IMG/VR virus record: IMGVR_UViG_3300030117_001122
Location: 1-31,805 of that record
Source of the DNA: a virus
Reading direction: 5' to 3' (one strand)
Length of the DNA stretch: 31,805 bases
Made by a program: the position numbers and the translations under genes. Shown here piece after piece: positions 10,968-19,160 of the stretch. Under the pieces are notes generated by a model. That model had not been told where the DNA came from. It saw nothing but the letters and a program-made list of their open reading frames with translations, and searched no databases. Numbering within the stretch: position 1 is the stretch's first letter; each line of letters starts with the position of its first letter.

Positions 10968-11484
10968 TATTAGACCTGTCCACCTTATCACTATTGGGTT
11001 CGGTACTCCTGTTAATATTACTGATTGTTCTTTTTCACTAACATCATCAGTTTCAGGAAGTTCAGTTACATATAATGCAAGTGATTTTATTATGGGTGTT
11101 TCTGATTTTACAGAAGAAACAGATGTAAATTTATCTCCAATATCAATAACACTTTCAGGTGCAGATCAAACATTTATTTCAACAGTTTTAAATGAAAATA
11201 TTATTACAGATACAGTTACAATATTTAGAGGATTTTTAGATGATAATAGTGCTTTGATAGCTGACCCTTTTTTACTTTACAAAGGCACTATAGATAATTT
11301 TGCAATACAAGAAACAGATACAGCTAGTTCAGTAAGTTTAGATATTGTTTCTCATTGGGCTGACTTTGAAAAAAAATCAGGTCGTAAAACTAACAACACA
11401 TCACAACAAAGATTTTTTAGTACAGATGTTGGTATGGATTTTTCAAGTCAAACAGTACAAGATATTAAATGGGGTAGAGCATAA
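10918..11484 (+). CDS. Minor tail protein (DUF2163-like, baseplate hub position)
   Basis: This 188-residue protein begins with a helical RSLTSSIKTELATNDIRPVHLITIGF stretch, a pattern seen at the N-terminus of DUF2163/BR0599-type tail proteins of siphophages and gene transfer agents. The rest is beta-rich (NLSPISITLSGADQTFI) and ends in a segment that could contact the J-like protein. In those systems it is the hub protein next to the tail tip. Its stop overlaps the J-like gene's ATG. Confidence 0.65.
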   Translation: MTRSLTSSIKTELATNDIRPVHLITIGFGTPVNITDCSFSLTSSVSGSSVTYNASDFIMGVSDFTEETDVNLSPISITLSGADQTFISTVLNENIITDTVTIFRGFLDDNSALIADPFLLYKGTIDNFAIQETDTASSVSLDIVSHWADFEKKSGRKTNNTSQQRFFSTDVGMDFSSQTVQDIKWGRA

Positions 11485-14336
11485 TGGGATTGAAAAAAGT
11501 ATTTAAAGCAATAACAAGACCTGTAAAAAAAGTATTCAAAGCTTTTACAAAAATTGTAATGAAAGCCATATCATGGTTAATACCAACACCTGATATACCT
11601 GATTTTGGTGTAGGTGAATTTGATGATTTTGAACGAGGAATATTACTTAATAAACAAAGTAATGATGCTGCTATTCCTGTTGTTTATGGTGAAAGACTAA
11701 TTGGTGGTGTTCGAGTTTTTTTAGAGAGTTCTGGAACAGATAACGAGTTTTTATATATGGCTCTTGTTATGTGTGAGGGTGAAATAAACTCAATACAAGA
11801 AATAAGAGTTGATGACAAAGTAGTAACATTTAGTGGTTCTCTTACAGATAATACACAAAGAACAGTAGCGAGTTCAGATAGTAATTTTTATAAAGATGGT
11901 GTTAGTTACATCACAATCGAGCCACATTTTGGTACAGATAGTCAAAGTGCATCTAGTCTGTTATCAACATTATCAAGTTGGACAAGTAATCATAAATTAT
12001 CTGGTATTGCTTATCTTGCTTTAAAGTTTAAATGGAATCAAGATATTTTTGGTTCAATCCCAAAAGTACAAGCTAAGATACAAGGAAAAAAAATAGTTAC
12101 ATTAAATTCTAGTTTAGTTGAATCAAGTGCAACATATTCTACAAATCCAGCATTTTGTATTTTAGATTATCTTAGAAATGAAAGATATGGAAAAGGAATA
12201 CCAACTGCTGATATTGATCTACAAAGTTTTTATGATGCTTCACAAGTTTGTGTTACTCAGGTTACTCCCTTTTCAGGTGGCTCACAAATAAATCTTTTTG
12301 ACACAAATGCAGTTTTAGATACATCAAAAAAAGTCATTTCTAACCTGAGAGAGTTAATTACAGGGTGCAGAGGTTTTTTACCTTATGCTGGTGGTAAATA
12401 TAAATTAGTTATTGAAACAACAGGTTCAGCTTCAATTACACTTACTGAAGATGATATTATTGGTGGTTACAGTTTATCTTCTCCAAGTAAAAATGATAGA
12501 TACAATAGGGTTATAGTTTCTTTTATAAATCCAGATAGAAACTTCCAAGCAGATGAAGTTCAGTTTCCACCTATTGATGACTCAGGATTAGATGTTGCAG
12601 ATAGACACGCAACTCTTAAAACTGCTGATGGTGGTTTTTTGCTAGAGGGTAGATTTTCCATGAAGTCATTGACTTCACCCTACCAGAGTGAGGAGATGGC
12701 TGAAATAATTCTCAGAAGATCAAGAGAAGCTTTACAGTTATCAATTAATGTAGGCTTTGATGCTTATGATTTAGTTATTGGAGATATAGTAAATATAACT
12801 CATGCTTCACTAGGTTTTTCAGCAAAACCATTTAGGGTTATGTCTTTGACTTTTAATGAAGATTTTACGATAGAATTAAATTTAGTAGAATATCAAGGAA
12901 GTCATTATACATTTGCACCAAAAGCACAACAAACAACAACACCATCTACAAATCTTCCAAATCCATTTGTAATACAGCCACCAGCAAGTGTTACTTTATC
13001 AGATACTCTAGTTGAGTATAATGATGGAACAGTTATTGTTGCATTAGATGTAACTATCGGTGCTTCTCCTGATAGTTTTGTAGATTTCTACCAAGTAGAA
13101 TATAAATTAAGTACAGATTCAAATTTTATAATAGGTTCAAGAGGTTCATCATTAAATCATAGAATATTAAATGTAATTGACCAAAAAGTGTATGATGTAA
13201 GAGTAAAAGCTGTAAATACACAAGGAGTTAGTTCATCTTTTGTAACAGCACAAAGAACTATTGTAGGTGCGATTGCACCACCATCAGATGTTGAAAACTT
13301 TACTTGTAATGTTTCAGGGCAAGATGCACATTTATCTTATGATGCTGTACCAGATTTAGATTTAGCATTTTATCAAATAAGATTTTCTTCAAAAACTGAT
13401 GGAACTGCTGAGTGGTTAAACTCTGTTAATCTTGTAACAAAAGTATCAAGACCAGCAACTTCAATTACTGTACCAGCAAGAGTAGGAACTTACCTGATAA
13501 AAGCTGTAGATAAATTAGGTAACTTTAGTTCAAATGCAACAGCAGTAATATCAACTGTTGCTGGATTACAAAACTTTAATACTGTTACTACTATTAACGA
13601 ACACCCTACATTTTCTGGAACTAAAAATGATGTCGTTATATCAGATGATGCAATAATACTAGACTCAAGTGAATTGTTTGATTCTGCCTCTGGATTGTTC
13701 GATGCAGAAACCACAAGATTTTTTGATTCAGGTGTATCTAATGCAGACTTTAAATCTACAGGAAACTATGAGTTTGCTAATGTAGTTGATATTGGTGCAA
13801 AACATACTGTTAGAGTAACAGCATCATTAACACAAACAGCTAGAAATCCTGATGATTTATTTGATAATCGTTCGGGGGATTTCGACAGCGGAAAATCGAA
13901 TTTTGACGGAGATGCACCAGCAAACTCAGATGCACATTTAGAAATTGCTACATCAGATGATAATGTTACTTTTACATCTTTTCAAACATTTGTCATAGGA
14001 AACTACACAGCTAGATTTTTGAAATTTAGACTCGTTTTAACTTCAAGCGATTTAGCTTCTACTGCTGTTGTATCAGAAGCCACAGTTACAGTTGATATGC
14101 CTGATAGAATACAAAGCGATAATGATATTGTTTCAGGAACATCAACAAAAACTGTTACATTTTCTTCACCATTTAAGAGTACAAGTTACGCAGTAGGTAT
14201 AACAATGGAAGATGCTAATACAGGAGATTTCTTTACAGTTTCAAATAAAACTGTTAATAGTTTTGACGTTTTGTTTAAAAATTCAAGTGGTTCAAATATT
14301 TCAAGAACTTTTGATTTTATTGCAAAAGGATTTTAA
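11484..14336 (+). CDS. Tail tip attachment protein (lambda gpJ-like) with fibronectin III-like region
   Basis: A 950-residue protein. It starts with a basic amphipathic stretch (residues 1-35, repeated KKVFKA), then the gpJ-type core: GILLNKQSNDAAIPVVYGER near 53-72 and the closing AKPFRVMSLTFNEDFTIELNLVEY segment near 445-470, as in the phage-tail_3 (PF13550) domain. Residues about 490-690 read as two fibronectin III-like domains (YQVEYKLS, VRVKAVNTQG). The C-terminal third is a beta-rich binding region with two LFDxxSGxFD motifs about 61 residues apart. It should form the tail tip and contact the host receptor. Confidence 0.82.
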   Translation: MGLKKVFKAITRPVKKVFKAFTKIVMKAISWLIPTPDIPDFGVGEFDDFERGILLNKQSNDAAIPVVYGERLIGGVRVFLESSGTDNEFLYMALVMCEGEINSIQEIRVDDKVVTFSGSLTDNTQRTVASSDSNFYKDGVSYITIEPHFGTDSQSASSLLSTLSSWTSNHKLSGIAYLALKFKWNQDIFGSIPKVQAKIQGKKIVTLNSSLVESSATYSTNPAFCILDYLRNERYGKGIPTADIDLQSFYDASQVCVTQVTPFSGGSQINLFDTNAVLDTSKKVISNLRELITGCRGFLPYAGGKYKLVIETTGSASITLTEDDIIGGYSLSSPSKNDRYNRVIVSFINPDRNFQADEVQFPPIDDSGLDVADRHATLKTADGGFLLEGRFSMKSLTSPYQSEEMAEIILRRSREALQLSINVGFDAYDLVIGDIVNITHASLGFSAKPFRVMSLTFNEDFTIELNLVEYQGSHYTFAPKAQQTTTPSTNLPNPFVIQPPASVTLSDTLVEYNDGTVIVALDVTIGASPDSFVDFYQVEYKLSTDSNFIIGSRGSSLNHRILNVIDQKVYDVRVKAVNTQGVSSSFVTAQRTIVGAIAPPSDVENFTCNVSGQDAHLSYDAVPDLDLAFYQIRFSSKTDGTAEWLNSVNLVTKVSRPATSITVPARVGTYLIKAVDKLGNFSSNATAVISTVAGLQNFNTVTTINEHPTFSGTKNDVVISDDAIILDSSELFDSASGLFDAETTRFFDSGVSNADFKSTGNYEFANVVDIGAKHTVRVTASLTQTARNPDDLFDNRSGDFDSGKSNFDGDAPANSDAHLEIATSDDNVTFTSFQTFVIGNYTARFLKFRLVLTSSDLASTAVVSEATVTVDMPDRIQSDNDIVSGTSTKTVTFSSPFKSTSYAVGITMEDANTGDFFTVSNKTVNSFDVLFKNSSGSNISRTFDFIAKGF

Positions 14337-15208: not shown

Positions 15209-15820
15209 ATGTACGCATTAGTTAAAGACGATAATATTGAAAAAATAATTAATAATCCAAAAGCTATGATTATTGATGATGTGCAATATCCAGCAAAGAT
15301 TTTTCAATTATGGTCGTCTTCTGAATTAAATGCAATAGGTATATATGAAGTTATAACTGATACATCTAATTTTAAAGATGAATATTATTACATAAATACT
15401 AATGAACAATTTGATTATTCAGACAATCAAGTTACAAGATCATGGGGTACTGCTACACCAAAAAGATTAGAAGATGAAGATGCTGTAGATAAAAATGGCG
15501 ATCCTGTTTTAGATGATGATGGCAACCAAATAATTAATTATGGCTTAAAAACTGAAAAGAAAAGAATCGTAAAACAACAAGCATCAGGATTACTTGCACC
15601 TACAGATTGGTATGTAGTAAAAGCAACAGAAGTTGCAGAATATAATGTTCCTGAAAACATCACATCATTTAGAGCAGAAGTAAGAGCAAAATCAAATGAG
15701 ATGGAAACTCAAATAGATGCTTGTACTACTGTTGATGAACTTAAAGAATTATATGAATACACAAGACAAGAAGATGGAACAATAACAAGACCTTTAGCAG
15801 AATTTCCTAAGGAGATTTAA
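15209..15820 (+). CDS. Putative tail fibre assembly or fibre-associated protein
   Basis: The 203-residue protein has a C-terminal part (residues about 135-203) with LLAPTDWYVVKATEVAEYNVPENI and FRAEVRAKSNEMETQID, matching the 'tDWyv.r..E....vP....yR...R' pattern of tail fibre assembly chaperones. The middle (residues about 85-125) holds a charged insert (DEDAVDKNGDPVLDDDGNQI). It lies between two fibre genes. Its stop overlaps the ATG of the adhesin gene, so the two are likely made together. Confidence 0.65.
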   Translation: MYALVKDDNIEKIINNPKAMIIDDVQYPAKIFQLWSSSELNAIGIYEVITDTSNFKDEYYYINTNEQFDYSDNQVTRSWGTATPKRLEDEDAVDKNGDPVLDDDGNQIINYGLKTEKKRIVKQQASGLLAPTDWYVVKATEVAEYNVPENITSFRAEVRAKSNEMETQIDACTTVDELKELYEYTRQEDGTITRPLAEFPKEI

Positions 15821-17262
15821 TGTTACCAACTATTTCAACAGGAAACGTAGCATCTGCACTAGCTGGAGAATATGAAGTAGCTAACTCATTAAGATTTAAT
15901 AGTGGAAGTAGTGATTATTTAAGCAGAACTTATAGTAGTGATGGAAATCAAAAAACTTGGACTTTTAGTGCTTGGTTAAAAAGATCATATTTAGGTAGCA
16001 CAGGAAATTTAATATTTTCTTATCAAGACCCATCATCAACTGCAAGATCAGATATTAGTTGGGCAAATGATAAATTGTATGTTAGTTGGAATCCAACAGG
16101 GAGTAGTTGGTTTTATGCAAATAGTAGTCCTACAAGAATGTTTAGAGATGTTTCAGCTTGGTATCATCTTGTTGTTGCCTGTGATACAACACAAGCTACA
16201 GACACAAACAGATTAAAAATTTATATAAATGGTGTGCAAGTTGGGTCAGATACACATAATACTTATCCATCTCAAGACCAAGATACAGGATTTAATAAAA
16301 CAGGGTATGTTCATGAAATAGGTAGGTATGCTCATTCTGGTAGTCCACATTTTGATGGCTATATGGCAGAAGTAGTTATGATTGATGGCACAGCACTAGA
16401 CCCAACATCATTTGGAGAGTTTGATTCTGATAGTCCTAATATATGGAAACCAATAGATGTATCAGGTTTAACATTTGGTACAAATGGATTTTATTTAGAC
16501 TTTGAAAACTCTAGTAGTCTAGGTGCAGATGTATCAGGACAAGGAAATAACTTTACTGTAAATAATTTAACATCTATTGATCAAACTACTGATACTTGTA
16601 CTAATAATTTTGCAACTATGAATCCTTTAGCACCAGCAAATATTTCATCTGCAACTGAGGGTAATTTAAAAATATTACAAAGTTCATCTGGTGGTTCTGT
16701 TATTTCTACATTTGGTTTTAGTAGTGGAAAATGGTATTGGGAAGTTAAATTAGATAGCCAGGTTAATTATACACAATTAGCTGGAGTTATAAAAGAAAGC
16801 AAAATGGAATCAGCACTTTTAACAAGTTTTAATGTGGGTGCTAATGATGGTGGTTGGGGATATTTTTTACAGGGTAATACAGATAATGGAAAAGCATTTC
16901 ATAATAATAGTGCAAGTTCGGTTTATACAACAATGTCTGCTGGAAATATTTTAAGTATCGCTGTAGATTCAGATAATGGAAAAATTTATTTTGCTGTAAA
17001 TGGCACTTATGTAAATTCAGGTGATCCAGCAAATGGCACAGGAGCAGTTTATACTAATTTACCAACAGGAGAAAATTTATTTCCAGCTATAACTAATTAT
17101 GTTGGTTCAGGAAGCACAGCTACTATGCTTATGAATTTTGGCAATCCACCATTTAGTATTTCATCAGGCAACGCAGATGCGAATGGTCATGGTAATTTTG
17201 AATATTCAGTACCATCAGGTTATTTTACACTTAACACAAAAAACCTAGCGGAGTTTGGATAA
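15820..17262 (+). CDS. LamG plus SPRY-type adhesin (fibre tip)
   Basis: A 480-residue beta-rich protein with two carbohydrate- or protein-binding domains. Residues about 22-200 match the concanavalin A-like/LamG pattern (WTFSAWLKRS near 47-56, WYHLVVACDTT near 108-118, LKIYINGVQVG near 128-138). Residues about 285-460 match SPRY/B30.2 features: KWYWEVKLDS, GWGYFLQGNTDN, LSIAVDSDNGKIYFAVNG. Such proteins are common in marine phage fibre cassettes and probably bind surface glycans or proteins. Tight spacing (stop/start overlap) joins it to the next fibre gene. Confidence 0.8.
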   Translation: MLPTISTGNVASALAGEYEVANSLRFNSGSSDYLSRTYSSDGNQKTWTFSAWLKRSYLGSTGNLIFSYQDPSSTARSDISWANDKLYVSWNPTGSSWFYANSSPTRMFRDVSAWYHLVVACDTTQATDTNRLKIYINGVQVGSDTHNTYPSQDQDTGFNKTGYVHEIGRYAHSGSPHFDGYMAEVVMIDGTALDPTSFGEFDSDSPNIWKPIDVSGLTFGTNGFYLDFENSSSLGADVSGQGNNFTVNNLTSIDQTTDTCTNNFATMNPLAPANISSATEGNLKILQSSSGGSVISTFGFSSGKWYWEVKLDSQVNYTQLAGVIKESKMESALLTSFNVGANDGGWGYFLQGNTDNGKAFHNNSASSVYTTMSAGNILSIAVDSDNGKIYFAVNGTYVNSGDPANGTGAVYTNLPTGENLFPAITNYVGSGSTATMLMNFGNPPFSISSGNADANGHGNFEYSVPSGYFTLNTKNLAEFG

Positions 17263-18668
17263 TGGCTTACAGTACAATAGATAAACCAACAGATTATTTT
17301 AACACTGTTTTATATACAGGAAATGGAAATACAAATCTTGCTATAACAGGAGTAGGATTTCAACCTGATTGGGTTTGGATAAAAGCAAGAACTACAAGTG
17401 ACTATAATCACATGTTGTTAGATTCTGTTAGAGGTGCAACAAAGTATGTAAAATCTGACGCAAATAGTGCAGAAAATACTATAGCAGAAACTTTGAAAAG
17501 TTTTGATTCCGATGGATTTACACTTGGAAATTCAGCCTATACAGTAAATGATAATGCAGTACCTTTTGCATCATGGAATTGGTTATCTGGCGGCACAGCA
17601 CCAGCTATAACATATTCAGTAAAAGTAGTTTCAGATAGTGGAAACAAATATAGATTTGATGACTTTGGAACAAGTGCTGTAACCTTAGATTTACAAGAGG
17701 GTGGCACATACACATTCGATCAATCCGATAGTTCTAATTCTGGACACCCATTAAGATTTTATACAGCATCAGATAAATCAGGTGGAGAGTACACTACTGG
17801 AGTAACAACATCTGGAACTGCTGGGAGTTCTGGTGCAAAAACTGTAATTACAGTAGCCGCATCTGCACCAACTTTATATTATCAATGCTCAAATCATGCT
17901 GGTATGGGTGGACAAGCAAATACAAACTCTACATTTGGCTCATCAAATTTTTCAGGCAGTATTCAATCAACTGTATCTGCTGGGAGTACGCAAGGAATGA
18001 GTATTGTGTCTTATACTGGAAATGGTACAAGCAATGATTCTGCAACTATAGGACATGGTTTGGGTGTTACTTTAGATGCAATTATTATCAAAGGCAGATC
18101 TCATACTGCAAATTGGATATATGGCACATCTGCTCTTGGATATAATAGTAGATTACAATTAAATAATAATGTTGCAAAAGCTGATGGAACTTATGCTTTT
18201 GGTGTATCAGGTGTAACACCATCTTCTACTACATTCACAGTATCAGCATCTAGTGGTGATGACCATACAAATGCAAGTTCAAATACTTATGTTGCTTACT
18301 GCTTCGCAGAGAAAAAAGGCTACTCAAAATTTGGAAAGTACATAGGAAATGGCGACGCAAATGGTGCATTTATTTATACAGGATTTGCTCCAGCTTTTGT
18401 TTTAATCAAAAGAGATGGTAGTGGAGAAAATTGGACTATTAGAGATAACAAAAGAGATGGTTTTAATGTCACTAATAAAACACTTCAACCTAACTCCTCT
18501 AATGCAGAACAATCAAGTAGTGATTATGATATGGATTTATTGTCAAATGGTTTTAAATTAAGAGCCGCTTCTGGACATTCTAATTCTTCTGGTCAAACTA
18601 ATATTTTTATGGCTTTCGCAGAATCACCATTTGTAAATTCTAATGGAATACCAACAAACGCAAGATAG
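17262..18668 (+). CDS. Tail fibre protein with inserted cupredoxin-like domain
   Basis: The 468-residue protein has two copies of a repeated domain (beginning DYFNTVLYTGNGN near residue 11 and MSIVSYTGNGTSND near 247, plus a third shorter KFGKYIGNGDANG near 358) that marine phage adhesins carry, with segments such as GFQPDWVWIKARTT. Between the copies, residues about 118-220 look like a small cupredoxin: a beta segment VTLDLQEGGTYTFDQSD, then GHPLRF with H162, then YYQCSNHAGM with C209, H212, M215. These are the four ligands of a type 1 copper centre in the right order. It may bind copper in the virion or use the fold only as a binding module. Confidence 0.78.
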   Translation: MAYSTIDKPTDYFNTVLYTGNGNTNLAITGVGFQPDWVWIKARTTSDYNHMLLDSVRGATKYVKSDANSAENTIAETLKSFDSDGFTLGNSAYTVNDNAVPFASWNWLSGGTAPAITYSVKVVSDSGNKYRFDDFGTSAVTLDLQEGGTYTFDQSDSSNSGHPLRFYTASDKSGGEYTTGVTTSGTAGSSGAKTVITVAASAPTLYYQCSNHAGMGGQANTNSTFGSSNFSGSIQSTVSAGSTQGMSIVSYTGNGTSNDSATIGHGLGVTLDAIIIKGRSHTANWIYGTSALGYNSRLQLNNNVAKADGTYAFGVSGVTPSSTTFTVSASSGDDHTNASSNTYVAYCFAEKKGYSKFGKYIGNGDANGAFIYTGFAPAFVLIKRDGSGENWTIRDNKRDGFNVTNKTLQPNSSNAEQSSSDYDMDLLSNGFKLRAASGHSNSSGQTNIFMAFAESPFVNSNGIPTNAR

Positions 18669-18677
18669 GAATTAAAT

Positions 18678-19160
18678 ATGCAATTATCAAAACATTTTAA
18701 ATTAGAAGAATTTGAAAAGTCATCTACAGCTATTCGACATGGGTTAGAAAATAAAGCTGGTAGTGGAGAGATAAAAAATCTTACTGATTTATGTTATGCA
18801 GTATTAGAACCTGTAAGAGCAAAGTTTGAAAAACCAATAATTATTACTTCAGGCTATCGTACAGAAGCTTTGTGTGAAATTTTGAAATCAAGTAAATCCA
18901 GCCAACATACTAAAGGAGAAGCTGTTGATTTTGAAATAGCTGGTATATCTAATCTAAAAGTAGCTTTATGGATTCAAAATAATTGTGACTTTGACCAACT
19001 TATATTAGAATTTTGGAAAGAGGGTGAGCCGAATAGTGGTTGGGTTCATTGTTCCTATAAAGAGGGTTCTAATAGAAAACAAGTTTTGACTTATTCTGGT
19101 GGAGAGTTTAAAAATGGACTACCTGATGCTAAATGGTCAGATGGTAAATTAAAAAACTAG
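18678..19160 (+). CDS. Endolysin, M15-family peptidase
   Basis: A 160-residue peptidase of the D-Ala-D-Ala carboxypeptidase/L-Ala-D-Glu endopeptidase type (Peptidase_M15_3-like). Zinc ligands are visible: H77 and D84 in SSQHTKGEAVDF (the SxHxxGxAxD motif) and H124 in GWVHCSY. ITSGYRTEALCEIL near 56-69 is the usual preceding motif. It would cut peptidoglycan stem peptides at lysis. No signal peptide is seen, so it needs a holin to reach the periplasm; holin-like genes lie 0.9 and 2 kb downstream. Confidence 0.9.
   Translation: MQLSKHFKLEEFEKSSTAIRHGLENKAGSGEIKNLTDLCYAVLEPVRAKFEKPIIITSGYRTEALCEILKSSKSSQHTKGEAVDFEIAGISNLKVALWIQNNCDFDQLILEFWKEGEPNSGWVHCSYKEGSNRKQVLTYSGGEFKNGLPDAKWSDGKLKN

Follow-up and report, generated by a model that had tools for sequence, protein, structure and literature searches.

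The tail-fibre/adhesin gene at positions 17262..18668 (+ strand; 468 residues) of a 31,805-base virus record, the whole stretch of DNA analysed here and called the window, raises the question of whether a copper protein has been built into a phage fibre. The original prediction had noticed there a segment, flanked by repeated copies of an adhesin domain of marine phages, with four potential type 1 copper ligands in plastocyanin order. It had proposed either that the virion may carry copper or that the fold had been borrowed to bind a host protein, and had judged a redox or receptor role unusual for a phage fibre.

A cassette inserted between the DUF7483 repeats of a SAR11 phage fibre

The nearest isolates of the record are the Pelagibacter phages HTVC202P, HTVC026P, HTVC112P and HTVC111P (77-82% identity over 17-29% of a 25-kb query), and the record is a SAR11 phage of the HTVC026P/HTVC202P/HTVC111P type. 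SAR11 hosts are the commonest bacteria of the ocean. The fibre gene is the final structural gene ahead of the endolysin: the gene of a lambda-J-like central fibre lies upstream (11484-14336), that of a LamG/SPRY protein directly precedes it (15820-17262) and an M15-peptidase endolysin gene follows it (18678-19160). The adjoining 480-residue LamG/SPRY protein, which combines a LamG-like lectin fold with a SPRY domain, is probably a second adhesin. In related pelagiphages, a gene resembling RTX toxin-activating lysine-acyltransferases adjoins the tail-fibre gene (L082 12472-12885, L083 11287-11673 and L084 11569-11976) and its product may perhaps acylate a tail protein; HTVC202P has no such annotation.

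The flanks of the fibre protein match PHROG tail-fibre/virion families and correspond to two parts of Pfam DUF7483 (PF24299; 354 bits for a cut-off of 27), in agreement with the proposed location of the segment between adhesin repeats. HMMs of both flanks delineate three repeats, at residues ~1-115, 223-350 and 340-456. Repeat 1 (residues 1-115; 17262..17606, + strand) is thus followed by the cassette (residues 116-222; 17607..17927, + strand), as delimited by AlphaFold2, Foldseek against the PDB, hhalign and its presence or absence among DUF7483 fibres, and then by repeats 2 and 3 (residues 223-468; 17928..18665, + strand). Homologues free of the insert pass straight from repeat 1 to repeat 2, and the junction is clean in the comparison of DUF7483 ORFs. 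Among the single-gene DUF7483 ORFs of the sampled contigs, 51 have the cassette (median 472 residues) and 80 do not (median 355 residues). The AlphaFold2 model of the full-length protein (pLDDT 88, pTM 0.89) gave no Foldseek match in the PDB below an E-value of 1e-3. From the position of the gene and its architecture we infer an adhesion role, the 468-residue protein being probably involved in host contact.

Predicted fold of the cassette

A model of the cassette was built with AlphaFold2 using 70 sequences from the window and IMG/VR. It is all beta, with eight strands, a mean pLDDT of 92 and a pTM of 0.86. His162 lies just before strand 4, Cys209 ends strand 7, and His212 and Met215 are in the loop leading to strand 8. 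This is the cupredoxin arrangement, as found in plastocyanin, with a histidine before strand 4 and the Cys-His-Met cluster in the strand 7-8 loop. A fold holding His162 far from this cluster would have spoken against the original prediction; the model places both at the strand positions that they occupy in cupredoxins. Judged by strand order, the predicted ligand positions agree with a single type 1 copper site.

The first 19 fold matches of the cassette in the PDB (Foldseek) are cupredoxin-fold copper proteins throughout, as are 44 of the 50 best; the others among these 50 are mostly Ig-like domains, the background expected for a sandwich. Best matched are the type 1 domains of copper nitrite reductases and multicopper oxidases (E-value of 6.5e-4 for a three-domain copper nitrite reductase), and rusticyanin is also present. 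TM-scores to PDB cupredoxins are moderate (~0.4-0.6; 0.55-0.59 for pseudoazurin). In the BFVD collection, the 'beta-sandwich proteins' A0A481Z6J5, A0A481YVH3 and A0A481Z7Q7 of giant viruses (Pithovirus, Marseillevirus) give TM-scores of 0.63-0.72 to the predicted fold.

Profile comparisons lead to the same family. A profile of 33 homologues searched against PDB sequences is headed by copper nitrite reductase (E-value of 4e-4), pseudoazurin, amicyanin and plastocyanin, the matches after the best one lying at 0.02-0.2. Using hhalign, the cassette profile aligned with seven genuine cupredoxins from marine genomes at 95% probability (E-value of 3e-8), first histidine with first histidine and Cys/His with Cys/His. 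A single-sequence phmmer search of the PDB with the cassette returned nothing decisive. The cassette has no Pfam model above its cut-off, Copper-bind (PF00127) reaching 13.6 bits for a curated cut-off of 21.2; this model does detect ordinary cupredoxins in marine genomes in which a cassette-type domain is present as well. By prediction and profile similarity, the cassette is therefore a cupredoxin fold.

Amicyanin, pseudoazurin and plastocyanin, all of the PF00127 family, are among the first matches by fold and by profile, and the cassette shares with them the eight-strand sandwich, the H...C-x2-H-xn-M placement and a tyrosine two positions before the cysteine. It differs from them by a proline in place of the asparagine, a long loop, TxGTxGxxGA, that joins strands 5 and 6, and its sub-cut-off score. 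Moreover, PF00127 proteins are secreted electron carriers, whereas the cassette lies within a virion fibre. Compared with copper nitrite reductases and multicopper oxidases, it has neither type 2/3 copper ligands nor a second catalytic domain.

A rival reading is that the putative blue copper site of the fibre exchanges electrons with a component of the host surface or detoxifies oxidants. A complete ligand set with a loop of amicyanin length would indeed give a redox-active site. However, a second redox centre or partner was looked for in the 468-residue protein and not found, the DUF7483 setting is structural and many family members belong to baseplates or fibres; we hold a redox role to be very unlikely. 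Among the window proteins that were scanned, there was no methylamine dehydrogenase, the partner of amicyanin.

The four ligand positions and their conservation

All four residues of the original prediction are present: His162 in the GHPLRF motif of the loop before strand 4 (17745..17747), Cys209 at the end of strand 7 (17886..17888), and His212 (17895..17897) and the axial-ligand position Met215 (17904..17906) in the strand 7-8 loop, all on the + strand. The cassette thus has the His, Cys, His and axial Met set of type 1 (blue) copper proteins, with all but the first in the strand 7-8 loop. The plastocyanin order put forward for them is right as regards the four ligands but not the loop: plastocyanin proper has C-x2-H-x4-M and a His-Asn motif, whereas the cassette has C-x2-H-x2-M and a proline after the first histidine, where asparagine is usual in both plastocyanin and amicyanin. 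The loop matches that of amicyanin in length only, and we make no claim of descent from it. The His-Pro pair recalls the HPxH motif of multicopper oxidases.

Among the 33 homologues, which are diverse (30-93% identity), only six alignment columns show no variation (F, H, Y, C, H and M), the four ligands being among them. In order to avoid ascertainment bias in the ligand counts, further domains were fetched with a search pattern free of the ligands, and all 73 had the four residues. Over the whole set of distinct related domains, 199 of 205 have the complete set. The invariance of the ligands at 30-60% identity, together with the ligand-free search, rules out a chance motif.

When the set is reduced to representatives below 60% identity, all four ligands are found in 31 of 37; the other six have each lost at least two, and no representative has lost just one. 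Column shuffling never reproduced this concerted loss (p ~1e-5, or p ~4e-5 when only the two full-length degenerate copies are considered), although both p values are indicative only, since the sequences are related and not phylogenetically independent. As the losses always affect at least two ligands jointly, the four residues behave as a single site. The prediction would have been weakened by homologues in which they are not conserved together; in these domains they stay or disappear as a group.

Both complete degenerate copies come from cyanophages. In PSS2 (L296, 1492-1830), a stand-alone relative of 112 residues reads D/A/T/M at the four positions and has lost three of the four ligands; it would serve as a natural copper-free control. 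The baseplate wedge protein gp7 of P-HM2 (L295, ORF residues 397-632) contains a tandem cupredoxin-like pair, of which copy 1 has an incomplete site (K/D/H/T) and the adjoining copy 2 is intact. The existence of a few copies devoid of the site indicates that the fold can persist without copper.

Could the fold then have been borrowed without its metal, as a protein-binding adhesin in the manner of ephrins or phytocyanin-like proteins, with H-C-H-M retained for packing or by descent? Ephrins and phytocyanin-like proteins do use the cupredoxin fold at cell surfaces for surface contact, and the PSS2 and P-HM2 copies show that ligand-free versions occur in phages. Yet ephrins have no copper ligands, whereas few residues of the cassette domain are conserved as well as its ligands, and buried packing would not demand Cys, His and Met specifically. 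As the ligands are the best-kept residues, we consider a borrowed fold alone improbable. Even less probable, in our opinion, is a site that holds zinc, iron or nickel in vivo: His/Cys sites can bind zinc, and zinc and copper are both scarce in seawater, but the canonical ligand set for copper in a cupredoxin fold is His-Cys-His-Met, and methionine is a poor zinc ligand.

Selection on the insert

Across 37 full-length fibres, the median pN of the insert is 0.12, compared with 0.36 and 0.39 for the two flanks, while pS is similar (0.51 for the insert, 0.53 and 0.57 for the flanks). A pN three times lower at similar pS points to strong purifying selection on the insert. The equal pS of insert and flanks in this main sample rules out recent horizontal copying as the sole cause of insert conservation. 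In a second sample of nine fibres, comprising that of the window and others retrieved with only the C-terminal flank as query, pN is again lower in the insert (0.10 versus 0.34 for the flank), but pS is also lowered (0.37 versus 0.50-0.52 in the flank of the same proteins), so that some recombination is likely. The insert is thus under strong purifying selection, with some recombination, within a DUF7483 surface that changes fast.

Distribution in phages and cells

Using as the tblastn query a relative of the cassette domain from a SAR116 metagenome bin, we found the module in 211 of 50,697 phage records in GenBank, all of them either marine environmental phages or phages of marine picocyanobacteria, SAR11 or OM43-type hosts. 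IMG/VR stretches that contain it number at least 585, and a divergent cupredoxin subtype is present in 38 cyanophage and marine-virus records; a search of plasmids gave no match. The module is carried by tail fibres, baseplate wedge subunits (P-HM2 gp7) and baseplate-fibre connectors, and viral structure predictions (BFVD) place it in P-SSM2, S-TIM5, S-RIM14 and others. Far from being unusual for a phage fibre, as had been supposed, the module is common in marine phage virion proteins. The divergent subtype also occurs in cyanophage proteins annotated as subtilisin-like or S8 peptidases (Synechococcus phage S-H9-1, H47/H48; BFVD A0A0E3F583).

A cupredoxin encoded by marine phages is already known in the soluble plastocyanin of cyanophages (petE), an auxiliary photosynthesis gene (PMC3037559). 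Unlike petE, the cassette is part of structural proteins and is also found in phages of non-photosynthetic hosts; its architecture and PF00127 score rule out a soluble plastocyanin of this kind.

A scan of prokaryote genomes with a single-sequence query identified 26 loci with the module. Some of them clearly lie on viral contigs within bins or single cells, for example L199, which is built like the virion proteins of cyanophages. Other loci are chromosomal. In SAR116, the module protein has an EF-Tu-type GTPase and an rRNA methylase as neighbours; in Marine Group II archaea, collagen-repeat proteins with the module adjoin fatty-acid and glycosyltransferase genes; DUF4214 proteins of Prochlorococcus lie next to gamma-glutamyltranspeptidase; and in Bacteroidetes a Big/FG-GAP protein of 3,861 residues is encoded on a 1.06-Mb contig. 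The cellular proteins carry RTX, collagen, DUF4214, Big and FG-GAP modules along with the cupredoxin-like one, which, like the tail-fibre and baseplate proteins, points to an extracellular setting. In the Marine Group II archaea (L193 3794-4801 and L195 4987-6264), collagen triple-helix repeats are joined to the cupredoxin domain in a layout resembling that of phage fibres.

We may wonder at this stage whether virion copper acts as a Trojan horse, recognized by copper-uptake or copper-binding proteins on the host surface. The module is in host-contact proteins and, in the phage collection, its carriers are confined to phages of open-ocean hosts. There is also a precedent, termed the 'Ferrojan Horse', in the HxH tail fibres of T4 (gp37) and alterophage R22Y, for which metal (iron) has been proposed or seen, with a possible ecological consequence (PMC11705849). 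However, the module also occurs in host-type cellular proteins and it is common to phages of very different hosts; this role therefore seems to us as improbable as the metal-free adhesin. The site itself is of another kind: gp37 and R22Y have octahedral HxH iron sites in fibrous trimers, whereas the 468-residue protein has no HxH (its histidines are at positions 50, 162, 212, 265, 281, 335 and 439), which rules out an HxH iron fibre.

Possible role of the putative copper site

The reading that we favour, and that we regard as fairly probable, is that of a genuine cupredoxin cassette with a complete type 1-like copper site, in which the metal is mainly structural and the module is a contact or docking element on the fibre. 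Four points speak against copper: the proline in place of asparagine after the first histidine, the Copper-bind score below its cut-off, the moderate TM-scores and the degenerate copies. The structural part of the original interpretation nevertheless holds, unlike the rarity in phage fibres, and the proposal that the virion may carry copper is strengthened by the predicted fold and the conservation of the ligands.

We infer copper binding, a structural role of the metal and a part of the module in adhesion, and the following mechanism can be proposed. Once the virion is assembled or the host lysed, the exposed module would acquire Cu(I)/Cu(II), the copper being bound when the protein has left the copper-poor cytoplasm. 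The metal would pin the strand-4 loop onto the strand 7-8 loop and so stiffen, in the extracellular medium, a small beta-sandwich that has no disulphides. In this rigid state, the module could make conserved contacts, or serve for docking, at or close to the surface of the host, while the surrounding DUF7483 repeats vary.

Implications for marine phages

In the literature searched, subscription papers being outside its scope, we found no description of a cupredoxin in phage virions, nor are copper proteins of any kind known there as virion components, and the domain appears to be undescribed in print. On the predicted structure and the ligand conservation, both fold and site are real and well supported: the cassette represents a known fold, in a variant associated with the ocean and in a place where it was not expected. 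The finding gives a function-bearing name to a domain whose annotation has been no more than hypothetical or tail fibre, and reveals that surface proteins of host-type cells and archaea contain this module too.

A broader view, which we put forward as speculative and rather unlikely, is that the virions of marine tailed phages are widespread copper-metalloprotein particles. A hitherto unnamed, ocean-restricted cupredoxin family would form type 1 copper sites in their tail fibres and baseplates, would be shared with surface adhesins of hosts and archaea, and would couple attachment to seawater copper, for example by docking that depends on copper or by way of the sites where hosts take copper up. 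Should the site be loaded, a large class of phages, among them phages of Prochlorococcus, Synechococcus, SAR11 and OM43 hosts, would carry metal on their host-contact proteins, with a bearing on attachment, on virion stability and on the organic copper ligands of seawater. This would parallel the iron-based 'Ferrojan Horse' idea, with a better-defined site. That hundreds of marine phages share the module, as do some microbes of the sea, suggests that copper may be present in virus particles.
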